A stretch of DNA of 64,000 nucleotides, taken from positions 6,833,307-6,897,306 of the forward strand of contig NC_057920.1 of assembly GCF_018873765.1 (NCBI RefSeq). The letters run 5' to 3'. The notes beneath the pieces are model-generated. The model did not search any database. It was not told where the DNA came from and was given only the letters and a program-made list of their open reading frames with translations. Position numbers and translations under genes: made by a program. Positions 432-62,296 of this stretch are shown piece by piece. How positions within the stretch are numbered: the stretch's first letter is position 1; every line of letters starts with the position of its first letter. This DNA comes from Telopea speciosissima. Lineage: Eukaryota; Streptophyta; Magnoliopsida; Proteales; Proteaceae.

Positions 432-3400
432 TTATTTCTTTTTCTTTCCACCTTTTCCAGATTTGGTAGATCCTGCTGTTGAAGTTGATGCAGGTTCCTG
501 TTTCTTGGTCCTCCCGTGGTGTCTGGGGACCATCTCTGCAATCTGGAGCATCAATTGTTTCCCTGCAAGATAATCATCAGAGAATTAACTACCAATCCGT
601 TTGTTTCCATGTAGAAAAGCGGAAAAGGAAAATGTTCACATAAAATAGGATTTCCCACTATTTGTTTTAACGTAAAATGTAAAAAATGACATTGAAAAGT
701 GGGAAAATTTTTCTTGTACAATAACATTTGCATGGAAATTTTACAATGAAACAAACAGGGCCGTTTATAGAAGAAAGAAAAGATGTGCTTATATATATAG
801 AAGAAAACAATAAAAAACACAATAGAAACACAAAACTGTGCAATCACACAGTAGTGAGGAACAAGAAGTATGGATTGCAAGATTCCATTAACACATTTCA
901 TTTATTTTGTTGGAGGGTAGGCTGGTCCTCCAGTTGCTCGCTGAAAATACAAAACAGAAGGAAACATTAAACAATGTTTAAACCCATAGGATTCCTTCAA
1001 GAGTGGTTTGCAATTGGACTGGACAACCAGTCCTTTTGTGTTTTTCAGTTATCCAATGTAGTCTAAGGGAGTCTATAAATGAAAGGATACTCTCAAAAAC
1101 TTTTCTTCCTTTGTCAATGAAATTCCAGCTTCCTTTCCTTTATTTTTTTCCTATTACGAAAAAGCCAAAAGATTTCATTAAGGGGGGAGACAGAAACCTA
1201 AAGAATTGGGGGAGGGGGGAATCCCTAGGGAGTATGAAAATACCATAGAATGCTGGCCACAAACCTATAAAAAAGCACAAAATTAAAAAAATGTTGGCCA
1301 AACCCACAGTGAAAAATGCAAACAAAGTTTGCAGTTGGCCATTGATATGTTCCAGAAAAAGAAAGAATGAAGACTGACAGAAAAGCCAAAATCGGTAGAG
1401 CAAATTGGAAATCCCAGAAAGAGGTGAGATCTCTTGCTTTTGGAGCAAAGCAATCATCTATGCTGGCTTGCAACAACCCTCAAAGATCCAGCAGCATTTC
1501 CATTCTGAAATAATTTGAGTGCAACTAAAATCAAAACCCTTTGTGACAAACCCAGACCCTGGAACCAGTACCTACAAGTGGAAGAGAGGATTTGCTGAAC
1601 CCACAATAGATTCAGTCTACTTATGTGGTCTGCCAATGACCTATTTATAACAAGTAAAATCAGATTCAGACTCTGAGTAGTTTACAAAACACGCACACAC
1701 ACACAACTTAATCTAACTAGACTCCAACTAGGAAAACTAAAGAAGACCAGACATAACACAATAGGGACACCCCCCCTATTGTGACTAAACGCAGTACATA
1801 TCTTAACACTCCACCTCAAGCTGGTGTGTATATATCAAAGGCTTCAGCTTGGAACAAGAACAAATATTAAAAACAGCACCAGTCTTGAACATAAATAGCA
1901 GTTTTAGACGCTAATAAGCATATAGAGAACTTCATTCTAATAGAAATACCAACTCAAGCATATCAATCAGCAGCAGCAGTAATAGTAGAGAAAAAAATTG
2001 TGTCAAATAAACCCAGCCAGCAACGAACAAAATATGCGGTAGAGACCAACAACCCGCAATCCAAATGATCATATCAACAACAGCATCAGCATAAGCTCTT
2101 CCCAAGGAAGACATGTAGTAAGTAGTAATTTGCACAAAGAAGACCACTTCCCGTATTTATTCTCAGGCTGAAATTCACCTGGTGAGATGGGTGTAGAGTC
2201 CTCTATCACATGACATACCCACAACCACTGAAATTTGCCACATGGTAAATAATGACAGGCACCAACATAAGGAGGGGTTGTCATTCCTATGCACTACAAA
2301 TTCATCAAACTCATCACAATTCTAACATACTTGATACTTTCACATATAACAGAATCTATTACAACCTCAGAGAAACCATTCCCTCTTCAGCCAGAGCTAA
2401 AACAACCTCATTAAAGTCATTTTTTCATTCCATGTGAATTCTTACTTTTTACCATATTTCCCTGAAAATCTATGCTTAAATAGAGCCTAAAGTCGGTTTT
2501 ATTTTACAGCCTTAAAGCAACCCCAGGGCTCAACCATATCCTAGAAAGTACAGACAGTTTCCATACTCTAGACATTACAGATATACTAGCTACTTGATGA
2601 TGAAAGGTTTCCTGCATCAGTGCCGAACATGACGCCTTGGTACATACCCCATTTAGTTTTTGAGAGACAACTATAAATTAATGGGGTATAGTGTAGAATC
2701 TCTGCCATAATGTCAGGAGCAGATTTTTTTTTTTTTTTTGGGGTGGGGGGGATCAGCAACAGTAAAAAAAAAATTGACTACCAGGCATAGAATATCAGAA
2801 AACTCCTTAGACAAGAGCCAGTCCAAATACAATCTGTCCTTACAGAACTTTACCTCATCTACCCTTCCAACCCATACACTAATGTATCACAATATGCATC
2901 AGCCTGCTTCAAATACTCTTCCACAGACCAACCCTGTGGAAAATCCAGGATAACTGGGAAACATTGCCCCCAAGAAGAACTCAACACAAAAAATGGCACG
3001 TCTCTTCCTCTCTAGACCAAGCTTGGAAATATTCTCCATAAGAAGTGGACCATTTTGCATGCTAAGAATGACAAGAAGTGGTCCATTTCAACCACACATG
3101 AACCCAAAATAAGAAAACACTCACATGGCAGTTAATATTCATTAAGTATCAGGTGCAAACTGCAAAATATAAAGAAATAATTGGACTAAAGATTATACAA
3201 AAATAAGAACTTTAGGCTTCAGTTCCCAATAGACCAAGATGACAGGATACATATGGGCTATTCATTCTTCATGTGGGCCAAAATCCTCGGTGCTTAATTT
3301 TCCCCTTCCTTAATAAGGATATTAAAGTCAACTCATGTTCATGGATAATGTGACCTATTGGTTATTGCAATGGAAAAGGGATTCCCACAAAGCCCTCATT

Positions 3401-8881: not shown

Positions 8882-26153
<17,272 letters not shown>

Positions 26154-38514: not shown

Positions 38515-39766
38515 TTAACCATCAGCAGAAGTAGAAGTTTCTTCATCATCCATATCGCCTGTCATCCAGTCAGCCCACATGTTGTCAGCTATTTCTTCTC
38601 TGAGTTGATCAGCATTAAGGGCTTCACCACTGTAATCATCCTGAACTTCATCATCATCATCATCATCATCAATTTGTTGGTTTGGTTGAACACTAGAACT
38701 AAGCCCTGCAGCTCTCTCATCTGCATCTAACCACTCTATCTTCTTCAATACTGTGCTATGTAAGGATGTGGTTATGAAGTTGAACACATGCTTGAACAAT
38801 TTTTACTTGAGTCCTAAATGGGTATTCCGGTTGAGCCTTCAATATCTTGAACCTTAACTTCAAATTAGAGAATGCCCGTTCAATAACGCTTCGTAACTTA
38901 GAATGTCGCAAATTAAACAATTCCTGTTTATTTGTTGGTGACAAGTTTGAATTATTCCACTCCTTTAAATGGTACCTAACATTACGATACGGTCTCAAGA
39001 ATCCAGTTCTGTTGGCAAACCCAGCATCAACTAGATAAAGTTTACCTGTAGGTACCACTAACTTGCTGTCACCCTGTCTATGAATGGCATCCTCTAATAT
39101 TCTAGAATATGATGCAGATCCTTCCCAACCAGATAGTATATATGTAAACCTTCTACCATGAACGTATGCAGCTAAAATATTTTGAGATATAAGTCCTTTC
39201 CTATCACGAAACTTGCAATGATCGGCAACTGGAACCCAAGCTGGTACATGTGACCCATCTATGGCTCCAATGCAATCCTTGACGTAGGGGTAGTAGCTTC
39301 TTGGGTTATTCAATATTTTTTCATGGGTTGTGGTACTTGGAGGGGTCAGTAACACTGGGTACAGTTTAAGAATTGCATGTAATACTTTGTTTAAATACTG
39401 ACTTACTGTCTCACCAGAGTGTCCAAAATGCAGCTTCATAACTCGATTCTTAACATTGTGGGCAATTGTAAATAAAAACATGACCACTTGTTCTTCCACT
39501 CGAACTGAGTTCGTGTGATACAGAAAGCCACAATCCTGTAGCCTTTGACATAAGGTAAAAAAAGACCTTCTACTCATTCTTATTATATCTCTACAAGTCC
39601 TGTCAGAAGCACCAATTATTCTCTCTGTCTCAATCCATCCACGATTACCCTCAAGTCGATAAGGTTGTTTTTTGAGGAACAGTTTGTGATACTTTTCTAC
39701 TGCTATAACAACAGCGGTAAGTACCCAAAACAATATCATCTCTTCATCATCGGGGTCAATATCCAT
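38515..39766 (-). CDS. PIF/Harbinger DDE transposase (HARBI1-like)
   Basis: The frame 39766-38756 (336 residues) holds the DDE_Tnp_4 fold. Catalytic residues are visible as CIGAIDGSHVPAW (first Asp), LYLVDAGFANRTGFL (second Asp) and RSVIERAFSNLKLRFKIL (Glu). An N-terminal helix-turn-helix-like part includes CRDIIRMSRRSFFTLCQRL. The frame stops after QLHNHILT, while a second frame (38799-38515) continues the expected C-terminus with LKKIEWLDADERAAGL and an acidic Asp run. An intron or a small frameshift near 38760 must be invoked to join the two, and I cannot decide which. The catalytic part is otherwise open, so the element may have moved fairly recently. Related plant host genes (ALP1) share the fold, but the inverted ends make a transposon the better call. 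Confidence 0.88.
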
Positions 39767-47161: not shown

Positions 47162-47611
47162 TAAATTTATGGGTTTTTTACAATTACTATCCAAAAAACT
47201 TTGATATCTACTATTACTCCCCTAAAATCTTTCAAACAACTATTATCTTCCCTGTTGCATAAGAATAACTAATTGGCTCCCACCGTTACATTTCCGTAAC
47301 GGAGAGAGTTAACCGTGACAATGTGCCATTGTCATGAATTTTTTAAGACCAAAATGCCCTTCAAGGTGGTAATTTGAAAAAAAAAAACCACCCCATCACC
47401 GTCCCTTCTCCTCCTCCTTCTTCTCCTTCTTCTTCTTCCTCCTCTGCAACCCCAAACCTTATTTTCTCCACTTGAGGTCTTAACCCCATCACCGTCCCTT
47501 CTCCTCCTCCTCCTCCTTCAAACTCAAAGCTGCAAAACGACCAAAACCTCAACGGCATTTCTAGGACCAAAATGCCCGTTGTCTCTCTAAGGTGTTGACT
47601 GGATCCTTCTG

Positions 47612-47851
47612 TTATTTACTTCCGTCACAGCAACACCAGCAAAAGCCATTCCTCCTCCTCCTCTGTTCATCATCTTTTTCTTCTTGAACTGCTTCTTCTT
47701 GTTCTCTCCTAACCCTAATTGCTTCTTCTTCTTGTCTCTTTCGATCACTGTGCTTCATGAAGATCAGTTTCTCCGACTGTGGAGAACCCCAATCATTGCC
47801 TCCCCATGTCATGTCTGAATCTGAAGATTCATGTCGAATGCAATTCCCCAT
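47612..47851 (-). pseudogene. Captured fragment of a small MGNC (myristoylation-type) protein gene
   Basis: An open frame starts MGNCIRHESSDSDMTWGGND, then WGSPQSEKL. MGNC is a classic N-myristoylation and palmitoylation start, and the MGNC-RHES-W-G-DDWG pattern recalls a family of small uncharacterised plant proteins anchored to membranes. After about 40 residues the sequence turns into a charged Arg/Glu/Gln stretch and ends CWCCCDGSK near the inverted repeat, so only the 5' part of the source gene seems present. It could still be translated if transcribed. Confidence 0.6.
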
Positions 47852-48569
47852 TTTGGATTGTTTCTACTTGTAATCTCTTTTTTTTCAGTTCTTCTCTGTG
47901 TGGAATTTCTGAACAAATCCCAAATCCATCGACCCTATTCTCTATTCTCTATTTTCATTTATTTATACTCACTGAAACAACCATCCCTGTTCCCATTTTC
48001 TCTTATTTTATTTTCCTCTCTCCCTCATCTGCCTAAGGATTCTCAACTCGAAAAACCAGCCCAAGAATAAGGTTCGATGCCAAAGAAATCTACAGGGGTA
48101 TCTCCCACTTGAAATAGAATTTCAGATGATCGATAGCGAGAGGGTTTTCGGTTAATGGAGGAAAAAATGAAAAGGAGAAGGAGAAAAAAGTGGATTCAGA
48201 ATAGAGGAAGAAGATTGGTTGCAGGTTTATGGGGTTCGGTTCTGGATTTCAGATGGAAGAGAAGTGAAGAGAAAGGAAAAGGGTAGAATTGGTTCAGTCG
48301 GAGTATTGGAATGGAGAGAGAATAACCTAACCTAGATGGTGGAAATAGGAGAGAGATGAGTTGCAGGTTTTGAATATCTCGTCGAAAGTTGCAGGTTTTG
48401 AGTACGAGCACGGTCGTTGCTTCTCTCTGATTTCGTTCATCGCCGGAAGTTTCAGGTCCTCATCGGAAATGCCGGTGTTCCTGTGACCAAAATGCCCTTT
48501 TGGGGTCGTAGACTTCGTCCTCGTCGTCATCGGAACCAGAAGAGGCCATGTCCATTGCCATGACGGTGG

Positions 48570-49240
48570 ACATCCGATCGACGGACTCCATTTTCTTGTA
48601 ATCTTCCCAGTTCAAGGGTTCTCTCTTCCGTTTCTCTTTCCTTATTCCATGGTGTTCCTCCTGTATTTTTTTTTTGTATCAACAATAGTCAAGTCAATAG
48701 ACCCTTTTAGTATTTTTTTTTATAAAATTTTCAGAGAGGGAGAGAGAGATTGGTGGTACCTTTAACTGATTAAGAGCATTTGGTGAGTGTCCAAGAAGTA
48801 TACGGTCATGACCAGGAGAGAGGAGGTTGTTTCACCTGCAAGAAGGAGGTCTGCTACAATACTCACTTTCTCTTTATCAATTAAGTTTGTACTTGTCAAA
48901 AGCAAATCCAAAAAGTCTCCTTTTCCAAGCCCCACACCCCCTTCCTCTCTGCGCTCTTCCATAATGGCTCTTACGGTGGACGAAATCCTTGCTCTTGCCT
49001 GCACAACCCCATTAATACCCATTCCATTAAGAAGAAGAAGAGGCTTTAATTACATATAAAATCCATAGTTGTTACCTTTACAGCTTTGGCATATGAGGTT
49101 CCTGGAACTTATGAGGTTCCTGGAACTTATAATGGGAGACACCAAACCCTTCATGAAGGTAAGGAATTCTTCTAATATCATTGAGGTTCGTGGGTCTTTT
49201 GGTTCCAAGGTAAGTATTTGCTTCACCATAACCCCAAACC
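48570..49240 (-). pseudogene. Captured cytochrome P450 fragment (clan 85, CYP724/CYP90-like) with introns
   Basis: Reading on the minus strand: [20 protein letters not shown] and EEFLTFMKG (about 49230-49130), a short duplication around VPGTS, then YAKAVK and a donor; after a ~75-bp intron, [17 protein letters not shown] (from about 49000), [20 protein letters not shown], the oxygen-binding I-helix [13 protein letters not shown], then VYFL and, one frameshift later, [10 protein letters not shown] with a donor; after a ~100-bp intron, EEHHGIRKEK and EPLNWEDYKKM (about 48650-48570). This order matches brassinosteroid C-22 hydroxylase-type P450s (CYP724, CYP90). The heme-binding Cys region and the N-terminus are absent. 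It is a fragment, not a working enzyme. Confidence 0.82.
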
Positions 49241-49739
49241 TTTTGCACCTTTGAGTTTGAAGGAGAAGGAGGAGGAGGAGGACAAGGGACGGTGATGGGG
49301 TTAGGACCTCAAGTGGAGAAAACAAGGTTTGGGGTTGCAGAGGAGGAAGAAGAAAAAGAAGGAGAAGAAGGAGGAGGAGAAGGGAGGGTGATGGGGTGTT
49401 TTTTTTTTTAACAATTACCACCCCAAAAGGGCATTTTGGTCTTAAAAAATCTGTGACAATGGCACACTGTCACGACTAACTCTCTCCGTTACGGAAATAT
49501 AACGGCGGGGGCAGTTAGTTATTAGTATGCAACAAGGGAGGGTAATAGTTGTTTGAAAGTTTTTAGGGGTAATAGTAGATATCAAAATTTTTGGGGTGGT
49601 AATTATTAAAAACACTAAATTTATTTGAGTAGTTTGAATCAAGTTTTTCTTCACCCCCGGCCAATGAGGAATCTAGTCATGACAACCATTGGTGAAAGAA
49701 AACTTCCCATTTTTTTATTTTCTCAAGAGCTAAAAAGAA

Positions 49740-53949: not shown

Positions 53950-56900
53950 TCATTCTCTCCCACTCTTATCACCTGCACCTGCAACTTCTTTGACATCAAC
54001 TCTAAATTCATACTCCTGGTCACAACCCATGTATGAATCACACATAAAATAAAGAGTATATGACTTCTCTCCAGCTTCTGCTGGAGCAATGAACTCAAGC
54101 TTGACTTTCGACTTGCGCTGCAGGGCAACCCTCTTGATTGCAAGCAGCTGGTTAGTTTCAGTATCACCTACCACAAGCCACCATCCTTCTTCTTTGGCTT
54201 TGGGATACCTGGGAGCATACACCGGTCCCAACTCAGACCTCTCTTCAATAACCCACTCAAGGGTAACTTGCAAGGCAATATCATCCCCAGTTCTTATGCT
54301 GTCACTCTTCAGCACCTCATATGTCATATCTATGTTGGGGAAACGATTGCAGAATCGTGCAATGTCCAGCAACTGTGAATCTGTCATCTGCAGCAATTCT
54401 TGCCTCTCATCATCCTCCATCTCCACTAAGTCAAACACCGTTTCTATACTCTTTCCCGGGTTCTCTTGACATTTTTTTGCCAACTCTTTCGTGAAGTGAG
54501 GAAGTTGTAGAAGCATAGAATCATGCTCCCACATGCCCTGTGTTACCATCTGACTCACTTCCATTGCAAGAAGAGCCAGGCTAAGCCACCCATTGCTGGA
54601 TATAACATCTACCATAGCTTGAAGTAACCTACTAGCAGAAAGGAGTACTTCTAGCTGGTCAGAAGCTAGGTTCCCAACAACTTTGTGCCTTGAGAAGTGA
54701 GCTTGTAGCAAAGCATTTGCTTTTACATGTGGGTCAGTATATTTGGGGTTCTCAAATGAAAATCTCTGGTGGTTAATCAACCTTCTTATCAACTCTTCCT
54801 CCCCAGGTCTTATTGAAAGCTCTGCATATTCTGAAGCATTAGCCAAAATCTCCAGTAGGCCTTTCATCTTCATTTTGGGAATCAATGACGAACTAAAACG
54901 TTCTATTGTAGTGTAGCTGATGTAGTAGTATGATGCTATCATGCCAAGGTTCAGAGGAATAAGGTTCATATCATCCTTTATAGCAACACACATAGTTGCA
55001 TCTAAGTCGCTCAATATGTTCTCCACAAGCTCTGAGAGATGATCAGAGAGATGCCTGTGGTCAACTCCCTGAAGGTTGTAGTAGTTAGGATTTTGAGTGA
55101 TCCTACGGTACATGAATGTCCACGTCAGATAATCCACAGCATCTTGTTTGTTCTTGATTACTCCGACAACAATTTCTGCATTCAGATTGTCATGCAAGTA
55201 ATGCTGCAGATGACTTTCGACTGGCAATGCTTCATACAAGAACTTCTTATAGTATTCTTTACGAGGTGCATGGCAGAGGATAACACATTTCCCAGAATTA
55301 TCCACAAGAACTTTACTCGCATGACCCATCATCTGCAACAGATCAGTAATTGGGTACTCTGTGTGAGCGTTTTCCCGCCCATCATAATATTGTGTTCCCA
55401 TAACCACAACCAAATGAGCAGATAATGGCATCCCCCAGCACATTGAGCTGCTAGCAACACAGACCTGAATCCACCCAGCTTTAAATAAATGCAACACAAC
55501 CTCCTGATCCATGCTGGTAAGACCTTCATGCAAGTAGCCCACACCATGACGAAGAGTATCACGAAGCATGAGATCACTCACCTTTGAAATGAAAGGTTCC
55601 AAATCTTCTACTAGTCTTAATAGCAATGTTGGCTTCTCCCCACTGTCTGCACTTGAGTAAGTCATCAGATCAACTGCCGTAAGCTGTGCATGCTTCCTAG
55701 TTGGAACAAACACCAGAGCAGATTTTCCATTCTTTGCATGTTGAACAATAGCAGTGTATGTTGGTTTTGTCATTGCTTGCATCCTTGCTTCAAAATTAGC
55801 TATATCCACTCCTTGAATGTGAATCTCCAGAGGCACAGGACGAACACTTGGATGAAAATTGAAAAGGCCGTGAGAGGTTGCACCTATCCATTCCCCAAGG
55901 TCTTTGGCATTTGCAAGAGAAGCTGAAAGTGCCACTATCCGTATTTTGTTCTCACCCTGACTTGCAATGTTTCTCATCCGAGCGACTATAACTTCCAATA
56001 CAGGACCCCCTTGGCCACCAATTAAGTGGACCTCATCGATTATAAAAAGGCTGACCTGCTGAATAAGCTTCCGCTGTTTCCAGCGGCGGGATAAAGCATC
56101 CCATTTCTCAGGGGTGCTGATAATTATTTGCCCTTTCTCAAGAAGTTTCAAGTCTGTTGCAGTTTCACCCGTCAATTCAACCACCTGCATCCCTAGGCCT
56201 TTTCCAAACTTCCGCTCCCAATCACGATAACATTCATTGGTCAGAGCCTCAATAGGAGCAATATAAACTACACGAATGATAGATTCAGGTCCTTTCTGAT
56301 GATTCCTCAAAAGAGCAAACTCTGCACAAATGGTCTTCCCACTCCCTGTTGGGGCTGCAACCAATACATTATCATCAGTGTTGTACAACACGGTGAAAAC
56401 TTGAGTTTGGATCTGATTGAATTGCTTGAATTCTTGATAGAGAGCTTCATATGAGGGGTTTCTCAATGCTGTCACTGGCAATGGTTGCAAGTCCAACAAT
56501 TCAGTAGGTGGAGGATTTTTTTCAGGCAAGATTAGGTGCCTGAAAGAAACAGGTAAGACAGACTGAGACCCAAGCCACCTATCTGACACAACACAAATGA
56601 AGTACTGAGGTGGTAAAGGTTCATAGATTGGCACTGTGAAATTTAAAATGTAGTCCTCGTCAATATACTGCTTCTTAAGCATGAAATACTCATGATGAAG
56701 AATGTATTCCCTGTCATTGTCCTCAACAATAACCCAGAATGGTTCAACAAATCCATGGACTTTGTCCTCCCACTGAAAATCTGGAGTTACAGTGAGTTCA
56801 ACTCTCAGCACAGAACGAGTGATAGGTTGAACACGTGCAGCCAGGTTAAGCTTTGGAAACTGGTGAATGTACTTGTGAAGTGGTTTCCCCATCTTAGGGT

Positions 56901-59900
56901 AGCGTATGAGCTCTCCAATCTCCTGAGCAGAAAGATCATAGTACCTCTGCCAGGCCAAATCTTTCTTCTCTAGTTTCATCAGGATCTCATTTGGAATCCC
57001 ATTGAACTGGCAAAGGGGCATCTGGATGCTCCACATCCTTTTGTTAACCATCTTACACAGATTCAAAGCCTTCTCAGCTAATTGTGCCCATCCTCTCTTA
57101 AGGACAATCTCGAAAAGGGCTCGCAGAAGACGACCAGCACTCTACAAGGAAAGTAAATAGAACAAAATAAATAAAGATTAAAAATGGATGTAACTAATCT
57201 AATTGAGGAACAAAACTCAAGCATAAAGGAACAAAGTTTCTGATTATAGCAAACCTGGGTAATGAACACCATGTCTGACATCAATGAAAGCCCCTCGAGC
57301 TTAATTTGTGAAATATATGCCTGAAGTAGCACATTAATCTTGGCAATAGGCTCTTCCAAGCTTTCCTTTATGGGTATGGGGATACAATCCAAGAGCTTTG
57401 CCATTTCCATCTTCTCATCTTGTCTCACTGTAACATATTTGAATTCTTCACTAAGGGAAAACAAGTGACAAAGCTCAATATCACCCATTGTTGGCTTCAA
57501 ATACTCGTTGTATATAGATATCGTTCCATGAGTTATATAGTAGTAACTAGCAACCCGCCCCAAGTCTGTAACTTGAAAATAGCCACTTTTGCGATCATAC
57601 CTGATCAAATTATTTCTGTCCAAGATTGTTCCAGCACTATGGATCTACAAATAAACAAGAACAACATCAGAAAACATAAAGGGATATTATGCTCAATTTA
57701 TCTGTTTCAAAAATTAGTATAAGCTTTTTTCGTTTATATAGATAAAGATTTTTATTATGTGCCCACCGCCAAGAATAATGTACATGCATACAGAACTATA
57801 AAAATTGCTGTACAAGCATACAGTACCACAAAAATCAATAGAAGCTAGCTAAATACAATCAACTATGCAAGCATGGAAACCTGATTGGAACTTCAGAAAC
57901 CCATCAAAATCAAACAAGCATGAGACAATGGAGAGAGAGAGCATCATATTTAAAGAGGTGGATCCCCCCCCCCCCCCAAAAAAAAAAGAAAGATACAACC
58001 GGAGATTCATAGTCTATATGCAAATTTTCAGAAACCTACCACTCCAAAATAATGCCACATTGACTTCAAACTTTTGCATTCTGATTGACATGATTGCCAA
58101 AGTGGGAGATAATATAGAAACACAATATATGAGAAAAGGTCCCAATTAGATAGACCTGCTTCTTTAGACATGACAAAGACAGTGAACTCAATACTGTATA
58201 GAAAAACTGGAAATGAGAAAAGGTCCCAATTAGACACATCTGCTTCTTTAGAAGTCACGGGTATAACTCCTGCTTTGGTGTCAAAGTATAGCTGGTAGTC
58301 ATGTCAGTCACGCATACTGGAGGTTTCTAGTTCAAATTTAGATGATACTGGTAAATACTGCTAACCAAATAGATGAAAATTAAAACCTTCTCCTCAGGGT
58401 ATACTTTCAACCAAAAATAATAATTATTGCAATGAAATGAAAATAAATAAAACAATGACAACAGCAACAGCAATAGAAACACAATAAAAAAATTAACAAT
58501 CTTGTAAATTGTAATACTTCAGAAGTAAATCATACTTTCATTATTATTAGTTCAATATGGCTAAAAAACAAATAATGAATCGAAATCCAAAGCTTGGTGA
58601 CAAATTCCAAAACCACCCAGATTTTTATTTGTTCGGGTAAGCACAACTTGAAATTTCTGAGTTGAAGTTTCACAAATTTTACAGAACCACAAGTGTTAAT
58701 ATTTCTGATCAAAACCCAACTGCAATCCATCTATGTCTAGCATGGACTACAGTGACAACCTGATGTACCAGAAACCAAGTTTATCTAGCACTTAGATTTA
58801 TTTTTATTTTTTTTTGTTGGGGGGGGGGGGGTGACTGCAACATAAAATCAAGCGTTTAGTAATACGATAATCATAAAACAGGCCTAAGCAACATAAATAT
58901 ATCCACACAGAAAGTGAAACAGAAATACGAACATAAAATATATGTGTAACCATTGCTTACCAGATCGGCCCTCCGCTCCTCCAATGTAATGTCTTTACCA
59001 AGAAAATTTGGATCTATGCCATATAGAGTCGGATTCCTCAACATACGAACATACAAATATGTGTAACTAATCCAGTTGCAGGCCTCCCTTGCATTCTGAA
59101 CAGTCCCAAGAGCAATTTCAGCATTCAGCTGATCAGCCAATTTGGATATAAATTGACTTTCAATGGGAAGCTGTTGATTCATGAGGGAAAGATAGTATTG
59201 CAGTTCACTATGCCCAGTAATAATTATTCCTTCACCATAGGAGTCATACTGAGGCCTTCCTGCACGACCCATCATTTGCATAACATCCAGAGGGCTCAGC
59301 TCAGACCATGCTCCTTTCTCAGGATTGTATATCTCCGTCCCTTTGATGATCACAATGTGTGCTGGCAAATTAACTCCCCAAGCAAGGGTAGCAGTTGAAA
59401 CCAATACTTGAACATGGCCTTCAGAAAAAAGTTTCTCAACAAGTTGGCGATCTCCCCTTACCATTCCAGCATGATGAATTGCAAATCCATATGGCAACAG
59501 GTCCTTTAGATCATTGCTCTTGACCAACTCCATATGACTCTGCAGGATCTCACGGCTTGCACTGTCCTCTGCTAAAAAACAACCAAGGGCATCCTTTGCA
59601 AGAGAAGTATCTCGTATAGCACAAGCTGTTTTGGCCGTTTCTTTCCTTGAATGGACAAAAATAAGAACTTGATGCTTTCCAGCAACAGCTATGACCTTCT
59701 CATAACAGACATCGTTCATCAACTGGAATCTCTGCAAAGGCTTCTTAGCCGTGATTCCAATATACTGCTGAGCAAGAGGGCAAGGTCTGTAACTGTTGTC
59801 AAAATGGAACAGTCCTTTTTCCTGATCAACTCGGAGAAACAAGGCCACATCTTCATAGTTGGGGAGTGTAGCCGATAATCCTACCAACCGGATATGTTCT

Positions 59901-61897
59901 TTTGTTGTCTCAATTTGTCTAACTGTTCTTGCAACAATACTTTCAAGCACAGGCCCTCTGTTATCATGAAGAAGATGAATTTCATCAATGATAAGTAGCT
60001 TCACAAGCTGCGTATAGGTTCGGTCCCCAGATTTTCTGGTGATAATATCCCACTTCTCAGGAGTTGTAACAATTACCTGTGTCTCTTCAATCTGTTGACG
60101 GGTCAGGGTCTGATCTCCACTCAGCTCTTTAACTTTGACACCATAATGTTGCAACCGATTGGACAGATTTCCAACCACTTCAGCAACAAGTGCTTTCATC
60201 GGAGCCACATAGACAATTTTATAATTGCTGTTGTTGAATGATCCACCTGGGTTCTGCAATGCAATCTGGTGAAGAATGGTTAGTAAGGCAACATTAGTTT
60301 TTCCTGCACCAGTAGGAGCACATAAGAGAATATTTTCTGCTGTCAAGAGAGCAGTTTTATAAACTTTACTCTGCACTCTGTTCAGCTGGGTCATCCCTTT
60401 AAAAGCCGGCTGCGCCCAGTCGGGCATGACAGAAATCTTTATGAGCTCTTCATCAGGAGCAAGCGGCTTTGGCTTCAAAGCTGGCACATGAACTTCTTCA
60501 TACCACTTACTATGATTCCTATACGAACCCATTGGAAGCTCACATTTCTTATTGGCCATCAGAAGACCACCTTTATGAAAAATGTATTTGTCAAGAGGAA
60601 GTATTTCACGCTGCCCCTTCCCCCAACCACTGTCTGAGTCTCCATCAATAAAACCCCTCCACTCCCTATCCCCATCTCCAATGGTGCTTTCATCTTTCAA
60701 TCTCCTGACCTCTTCTCTTATACTTTTCTCCAAGTTCTTCTGGCGTTCCTTAGCAGTTGCTCTAGTGGCATGCAACTGCTCCAAAATAGCAGCCAAATCT
60801 GAACCCGAACCCATCATTTCTTCCTCAATCTTCTTCCTTTCCTCTTGGTCTTCAGCCCTTGCCAAACGTGTACACCAGACTATCTTCAGCCGGTTCCCCA
60901 AGAGATATTTAATGAGGCTAAACTTATCAAAATCAAGAAGCACCAAGAGCCTTTTTTCTCTGTCACCTCCTTCTGCAAGTATTGTAAGCACATCATCTGC
61001 CAATTTCTTGCAGTGTTGTGGGTCAATCACTTCATATGATTGAGAGATTTTTCTCTGGAGCCAATATGCATCTATATCTTGAACATTAAGAGTCATTTCC
61101 TCGTTGGCTTCTTGGACGTCATCATCATCGATCCCACGACCCATCTGCATTGCACCAGCGTCATTTAAGTCCAGCCCATCATCTTCCTCCATGTCCACTT
61201 CCTGAACCACATCAAAATCACTGTCGTCCTCTTCCTCCTCCTCATCTTCAAACTCGACAACAACACCCATATCATTATCAAGAGCATCATCAGCAGTAGC
61301 AGCAGCAGACCCGGCTGCCTCACCACCGTCTTGGAAGTCAGTAATAAGGTTCCCAATAGACACGAGTTGATCAAATACTTGATTTGGTATTGGATTCAAA
61401 GGCCCATCAATCTCCATTTTCTTGTCAGGATTCTTGATGGCATCATTCTTTAGAACGGCCAGCACCTCATCAGCTGCACCACTCACAACACTTGGTGGCT
61501 GACCTCCTAACTGCTGTTGTATGACTCCGAGTAAGGCCTCGTATGCTGCCCGAGTCTCCTTCGTCTTTGGCTGATAATCACCTTCCTCTGTCACAGAGAG
61601 GACGCTCTCCTTTCGGAGGCGCCGCCGCTTACTTTGCCTACTGGGCAAGCCCTCAGGGTCCCAATCCTTCTTCTTTAACTTCCTCAGCTTCTCATCGGAT
61701 TCCGGGGGTTTTCCTCTGTAAGCACGATCACCAAAGGTTTTCGGGTCTATCTTCCCATATAGAGATTCAGGCTTCACCGTTGGCTCATGAGTGTCACGAG
61801 GACCAGAATCGGTTGTAAGCACAAGGCTCGAGTTTGCTCTGTAGTCATACTGCTTGAAACGAGCGTGTGCCTCCGCACCACCACCCAAATGCGCCAT
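53950..61897 (-). CDS. BRR2: BRR2, U5 snRNP 200-kDa helicase (DExH), 3 coding exons
   Basis: BRR2 unwinds U4/U6 during spliceosome activation in the nucleus. Exons 61897-58961, 57644-57255 and 57141-53950 have GT-AG borders, all phase 0, giving 2172 residues; Arabidopsis BRR2a is about 2170. The N-terminal region includes an acidic run near 216-240. Cassette 1: [14 protein letters not shown] (about 524-537), [11 protein letters not shown] (636-646), [10 protein letters not shown] (671-680), then the motif VI block [15 protein letters not shown]. Cassette 2 starts near 1370 with [26 protein letters not shown] lies near 1478; two Sec63-type regions follow the cassettes. Cassette 2 is normally a pseudo-helicase; here motif VI reads QMMGHASKV where other plant BRR2s have QMMGRASRP. 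The leader probably has an intron ending CTGTAG just upstream of the ATG. No break is seen in the frame. Plants carry several BRR2 copies; I cannot say which this is. Confidence 0.96.
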
Positions 61898-62296
61898 CCT
61901 CTCACCAACAGAACGTAAAGGGTTAACCTACAGGAGAGGGAGAAAATGAACAATAAGAAAGCAGGAAATTGTAATCAGTGAGAGAGAAACCTTAAATCCT
62001 GAGTCAAAAGGAACGAATCACAGAGACGTTCCTGCTCCCGAAACTACTACCCGTACGTTCGAACAGACTCACAGAATCACGGGCACAATTCAATCATAGA
62101 AGAACAAAGTAGAAAAACCTGTTAATCAATTGGATAACTAGGGTTAGATGAACTCAAACGAACAGATAGAAAGAAAAACGAATAGAGACAACGCCATTGA
62201 TTGGTGAATGGTATCGAGTAAACAAACAAACTACTACTAAATATGCAAAAGGGAAAACTTCTTGTGACTTGCTGGGCAAGCTTGACTTTTGCAGAG

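Follow-up and report, generated by a model that had tools for sequence, protein, structure and literature searches.

The element and its ends

A Mutator-like element (MULE) with terminal inverted repeats (TIRs) of ~367 bp lies at 47171-49615 of the window, the 64,000-nucleotide stretch of Telopea speciosissima DNA analysed here (contig G000:C5). Its TIR starts with GGGTTTTTTACAATTAC at 47171, has its inverted counterpart at the 49615 end, and is flanked on both sides by a 9-bp target site duplication (TSD).

47162-47170, no strand: left TSD, TAAATTTAT, from the sequence
47171-47537, plus strand: left TIR, 87.5% identical to the right arm over 376 columns
49249-49615, minus strand: right TIR, from the sequence and the arm alignment
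49616-49624, no strand: right TSD, TAAATTTAT, from the sequence

A TSD of 9-11 bp is a hallmark of MULEs. An exact 9-bp match at the spacing of the element occurs at one of 61,537 window positions, which is the TAAATTTAT pair flanking it. The initial annotation of this DNA had described a 9-bp duplication and inverted arms of ~365 bp, and both were borne out, the duplication being perfect on the two sides. When 11 of the element's ORFs of at least 40 aa were scanned against Pfam, no transposase match was found and the sole match was to a P450 piece (PF00067, E=1.1e-4, 21.6 bits), under the cut-off of 22.8 bits. The element has one TIR per end and its interior holds only short TIR scraps. With its TIRs, 9-bp TSD and captured gene pieces, without a transposase match, and with a P450 donor elsewhere in the same genome, 47171-49615 is a Pack-MULE, the identity first proposed for it.

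Elsewhere in the window, the minus strand has two long open frames, of 1063 aa at 53953-57141 and of 1018 aa at 58874-61927. Both contain domains of the BRR2-type splicing helicase, and they are probably two parts of one gene. A DDE_Tnp_4 transposase frame of 336 aa lies at 38759-39766 (minus strand) and a retrotransposon gag frame of 415 aa at 22419-23663 (plus strand).

The P450 cargo and its donor gene

The P450 cargo at 48585-49231 (minus strand) aligns to contig C3:5310571-5311210 (locus L009, 5072-5711) with 89.9% identity over 663 columns, with gaps. It reaches from within exon 3 of this donor gene, through intron 3, exon 4, and intron 4, to a point inside exon 5, the boundaries below being taken from the donor alignment.

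48585-48660, minus strand: P450 exon 5, partial (EEHHGIRK...LNWEDYKKM)
48661-48759, minus strand: P450 intron 4, 99 bp, GT...AG
48760-48998, minus strand: P450 exon 4, including the I-helix region; PF00067 match just under the cut-off
48999-49075, minus strand: P450 intron 3, 77 bp, GT...AG
49076-49231, minus strand: P450 exon 3, partial (MVKQIL...YAKAVK), with its frame broken in the window copy

Both introns are at the donor positions and their GT...AG ends are kept in all three copies of the element. The initial annotation had placed the P450 pieces in this order on one strand, separated by two introns with GT and AG ends, and had predicted a parental gene in the same genome. The order, strand and introns all hold, and the donor locus on C3 has the same exon-intron order. 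The piece was captured as DNA, as had also been claimed, since its introns are still in place and match those of the donor. The P450 similarity does not run on through the arms; the donor match stops at 49231, short of the right arm. No arm-length (>90 bp) TIR match was found in the 9.9 kb of the donor locus, and the cargo is thus a host-gene fragment whose donor is not flanked by TIRs. At both P450 junctions the donor and the element share 3 to 4 bases, as would be expected from template switching.

A hand-assembled donor model of 481 aa has CYP90B1 as its best solved match (E=2.9e-142), with taxadiene 5-alpha-hydroxylase as the next family (E=2.4e-56). This supports a brassinosteroid-type P450 with CYP90B1 as its best solved relative, in line with the CYP90-like half of the earlier CYP724/CYP90-like assignment; the CYP724 label is putative and comes from that annotation. 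A second P450 locus with a 79% match lies ~33 kb from the donor on C3.

Copies of the element and its TIR family

DNA searches of the 822.9 Mb genome gave the copy count that the initial annotation had called for, with three full copies on three contigs (C5, C3, and C6), each with its own 9-bp duplication.

C5, window copy: TSD TAAATTTAT, exact
C3:15962640-15965075, copy L002: 92% identity, TSD GTTTCTGAT, exact
C6:33747207-33749671, copy L003: 90% identity, TSD TTGATAAAT/TTAATAAAT, one mismatch

The three different target sequences indicate three insertions and not segmental duplication, and thus that the element has transposed. Many single arms of the TIR family were also found, with the best 40 of 926 candidates scored, so that arm counts are lower bounds. 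A TSD with at most one mismatch is present in five of the nine other family elements (exact in L035, L017, and L020; one mismatch in L022 and L019) and was not found in the remaining four (L016, L018, L021, and L023).

Two relatives display additional arms. L019 (C10:53510000-53514500) has two tandem TIR-like arms at one end (2931-3377), and pairing of the outer arm gives a 9-bp TSD with one mismatch. L035 (C1:3230534-3233617) has a further TIR-like arm at 2006-2287, just outside its element.

MULE transposases are abundant in the genome, with 150 of 827 candidates scored and all 150 over the cut-off. The family TIR was absent from the 20 of these 150 transposase loci that were searched with 1.5 kb flanks. 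The 5-kb family member L016 was considered as an autonomous partner and rejected, a Pfam scan of four of its ORFs having found no match.

A mosaic interior

The initial description of the cargo was correct for the P450 part and missed the rest. The interior is a mosaic of P450, WD40, and PADRE-like pieces, a dispersed repeat, and two TIR scraps, of which those outside the P450 cargo are as follows.

47552-47580, no strand: TIR scrap, 29 bp, 89.7% to the family TIR consensus
47615-47918, minus strand: piece of a small MGNC... gene, with a 79-aa ORF at 47612-47851; 80.3% over 325 columns to L027 on C9
47811-48412, minus strand: stretch collinear with a C8 locus, covering the MGNC ORF start and its upstream DNA; 89.4% over 620 columns to L013
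48148-48379, no strand: dispersed repeat segment, 92-95% full-length at seven loci
48485-48510, no strand: TIR scrap, 26 bp, 96.2% to the family TIR consensus
48505-48588, minus strand: 84 bp from the 5' coding region of a WD40-repeat gene, joined in frame to P450 exon 5; identified by matches to L035 and L036

The MGNC piece has no known near-identical donor, its match being 80%. The C9 relative gives a sub-threshold Pfam PADRE match (PF14009, E=1.3e-4, 22.9 bits vs. a 29.6 cut-off), while the element's own MGNC ORF has no Pfam match. From its alignment, the C8 locus L013 could be either the donor or a sister of 47811-48412. No inverted arms of at least 24 bp were found at L013 or L027. Inverted-repeat pairs ~1.4-1.5 kb apart occur at L029 (862-2376), L014 (3898-5437), and L046 (1197-2593), where they surround either the start of the MGNC gene or the dispersed repeat described above. 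These three loci are perhaps other TIR elements with the same pieces; a TSD was looked for at each of them and not found.

The WD40 piece has a clearer history. It is 100% identical over its 84 bp to L035 on C1 and 96.4% identical to the long-ORF gene L036 on C10, where an open frame of 595 aa matches WD40 (PF00400). The arms of the L035 element (483-1955) belong to the same TIR family, its 9-bp TSD is exact (TATTTGTTA), and it carries 882 bp from the L036 gene with 95.1% identity; L035 is therefore itself a Pack-MULE. With a third relative, L039, as reference, one of the three differences from L036 is shared-derived in the element and L035; of the remaining two, one is derived in L036 and one falls outside the match of L039. 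A common intermediate for the WD40 piece of the two elements is thus likely, as judged from this one site.

Taken together, the locus is best read as a non-autonomous Pack-MULE whose interior was assembled stepwise from several DNA sources (probability ~0.93). It could instead be that the mosaic pre-existed as a chromosomal locus and was enclosed whole by a MULE. The collinearity of C8 with 47811-48412, across the MGNC start and the dispersed repeat, indicates that part of the mosaic did pre-exist outside the window element. However, the P450 donor is on C3 and the WD40 sequences are on C10 and C1, TIR scraps lie inside the cargo, and among the listed matches the three copies alone have P450 and WD40 joined in this order, which makes enclosure of a complete locus exceedingly improbable.

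Reading frames and selection

The three copies differ in their coding capacity. When L003 is spliced in silico at the donor sites, a single ORF of 186 aa spans P450 exons 3 to 5 and continues in frame into the WD40 piece. Splicing of L002 leaves 134 aa from a later ATG with a broken frame, and the longest ORF of the minus-strand spliced window copy is 91 aa, the P450 frame again being broken.

Branch changes were polarised by the second P450 locus on C3, which left two intron differences unplaced. On the donor branch 2/457 exon sites and 7/170 intron sites are changed (p=0.002), while on the element branch the counts are 7/457 and 3/170 (Fisher p=0.74). Exon and intron rates are therefore similar on the element branch, on few changes, and no selection is seen there. 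The donor is under constraint, of which the element gives no sign on the few changes available. Compared with the donor, dN/dS is 0.16 for L002 (seven synonymous and four non-synonymous changes), 0.45 for L003, and 0.29 for the window copy; between copies it is 0.39 for the window copy and L002, and 1.14 for the exons of L002 and L003 (two synonymous and eight non-synonymous changes). The low values against the donor include the constraint on the donor itself, and may in addition reflect constraint that acted on the element prior to its multiplication.

The 186-aa ORF raises the question of whether L003 (C6:33747207) could be a functional chimeric gene of recent origin, with the right TIR driving its expression. 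Its ORF is intact after in-silico intron removal at the donor splice sites and the P450/WD40 join is in frame, but the frames are broken in two of the three copies and the L002-L003 exon comparison gives a dN/dS above 1. The ORF also stops in exon 5, ahead of the part of the donor that aligns with the CYP90B1 haem-binding loop, and no P450 activity is therefore expected. A functional gene is highly improbable on this evidence, and the ORF is probably a by-product of capture.

Divergence of arms and interior

When the copies are compared with one another, divergence is 2.4-2.9% in the interior (47538-49231), 7.3-9.3% in the right arms, and 9.4-21.0% in the left arms; relative to the interior it is 2.7-3.6 times higher in the right arms and 3.5-7.3 times higher in the left arms. 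The tree built from 40 arms of 24 loci has a star-like shape, with good support for 2/37 inner branches; in it the right arms of the three copies cluster (89/83) and their left arms fail to group. Judging from this tree, exchange between arms, and not mutation alone, may account for part of the fast TIR divergence.

The arms are also rich in transitions. C-to-T or G-to-A changes from the consensus affect 487 of 5420 G/C positions in the 40 family arms, against 105 of 6659 in reverse (ratio 5.7), while the interior of the three copies has 24 of 2078 against 14 of 2876 (ratio 2.4); as the TIR and interior consensus differ in age, only these ratios are comparable. By context, the family C-to-T excess is 0.092 for CG, 0.116 for CHG, and 0.087 for CHH, and this lack of CG preference argues against simple CG-methylation decay. 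The left arm of L003 has 55 changes from the family consensus, of which 33 are C-to-T or G-to-A, and its right arm has 32 and 19, respectively.

A C-to-T excess is a mark expected where methylation is guided by small RNA, and methylation aimed at the TIRs would fit the excess in the arms; the missing CG preference and the ungrouped left arms, which point to a possible share of arm exchange, count against it. The possibility raised in the initial annotation, that antisense or small RNA made by the element lowers expression of the donor P450, was weighed against this pattern. The three copies have 149/429, 260/429, and 178/429 21-mers in common with donor exons 3-5, which would allow such targeting. 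However, the C-to-T excess is stronger in the TIRs than in the interior, an indirect argument against it, and silencing of the donor is considered very unlikely. In rice, the available text of PMC4858842 reports that TIR CHH methylation of such elements drops with age while interior methylation rises.

Proposed origin

Under stepwise assembly, a MULE (MURA-type) transposase from another locus would act in trans to move the element, and the gene pieces would have been copied in via template switching or ectopic gap repair. The 84-bp WD40 piece probably arrived via another Pack-MULE and not straight from the gene, and the cargo would have no host function and be in neutral decay.

A more far-reaching proposal is that Pack-MULEs of this family pass captured exons such as the WD40 piece among themselves and join them in frame to new exons such as those of the P450. 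The family would then act as a system for shuffling exons into spliced chimeric genes, with the L003 ORF as a living product. This broader proposal is regarded as unlikely.

Comparison with known Pack-MULEs

Like the Pack-MULEs of rice, maize, tomato, and Arabidopsis, the element is non-autonomous, has long TIRs and a 9-bp TSD, and carries host gene fragments including introns. No description of this element or of a CYP90-carrying Pack-MULE was found in open-access titles and the starts of abstracts. Mosaic cargo has precedent in Oryza, where 5-10% of MULE-derived putative genes combine ORF sequence of two or more parental genes, according to the available text of PMC4858842. GC-rich capture is described for rice and maize Pack-MULEs in the accessible parts of PMC3310237 and PMC4858842, whereas the cargo here is not notably GC-rich (P450 cargo 39.6% GC vs. 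39.1% for the window). As far as the accessible part of PMC3310237 goes, the multi-copy Pack-MULE family resembles tomato PM-ZIBP, and the additional TIR-like arms of L019 and L035 recall the multiple-TIR MULEs of tomato, from which the window element differs in having a single TIR per end.

The element is a fine representative of a familiar class and leaves the picture of Pack-MULEs unchanged. Its value is that the donor with introns, the element copies, the junctions, and a piece common to another Pack-MULE are fully traced in one genome. Two points thereby become testable: whether one Pack-MULE can take up pieces of another, and whether marks of silencing are confined to TIRs with the cargo spared. 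The best points of the case are the cargo shared between elements and the in-frame P450-WD40 join. Compared with the systems of rice, maize, tomato, and Arabidopsis, the genome and the cargo are different here, and one piece of the cargo also occurs in a second Pack-MULE from its TIR family.
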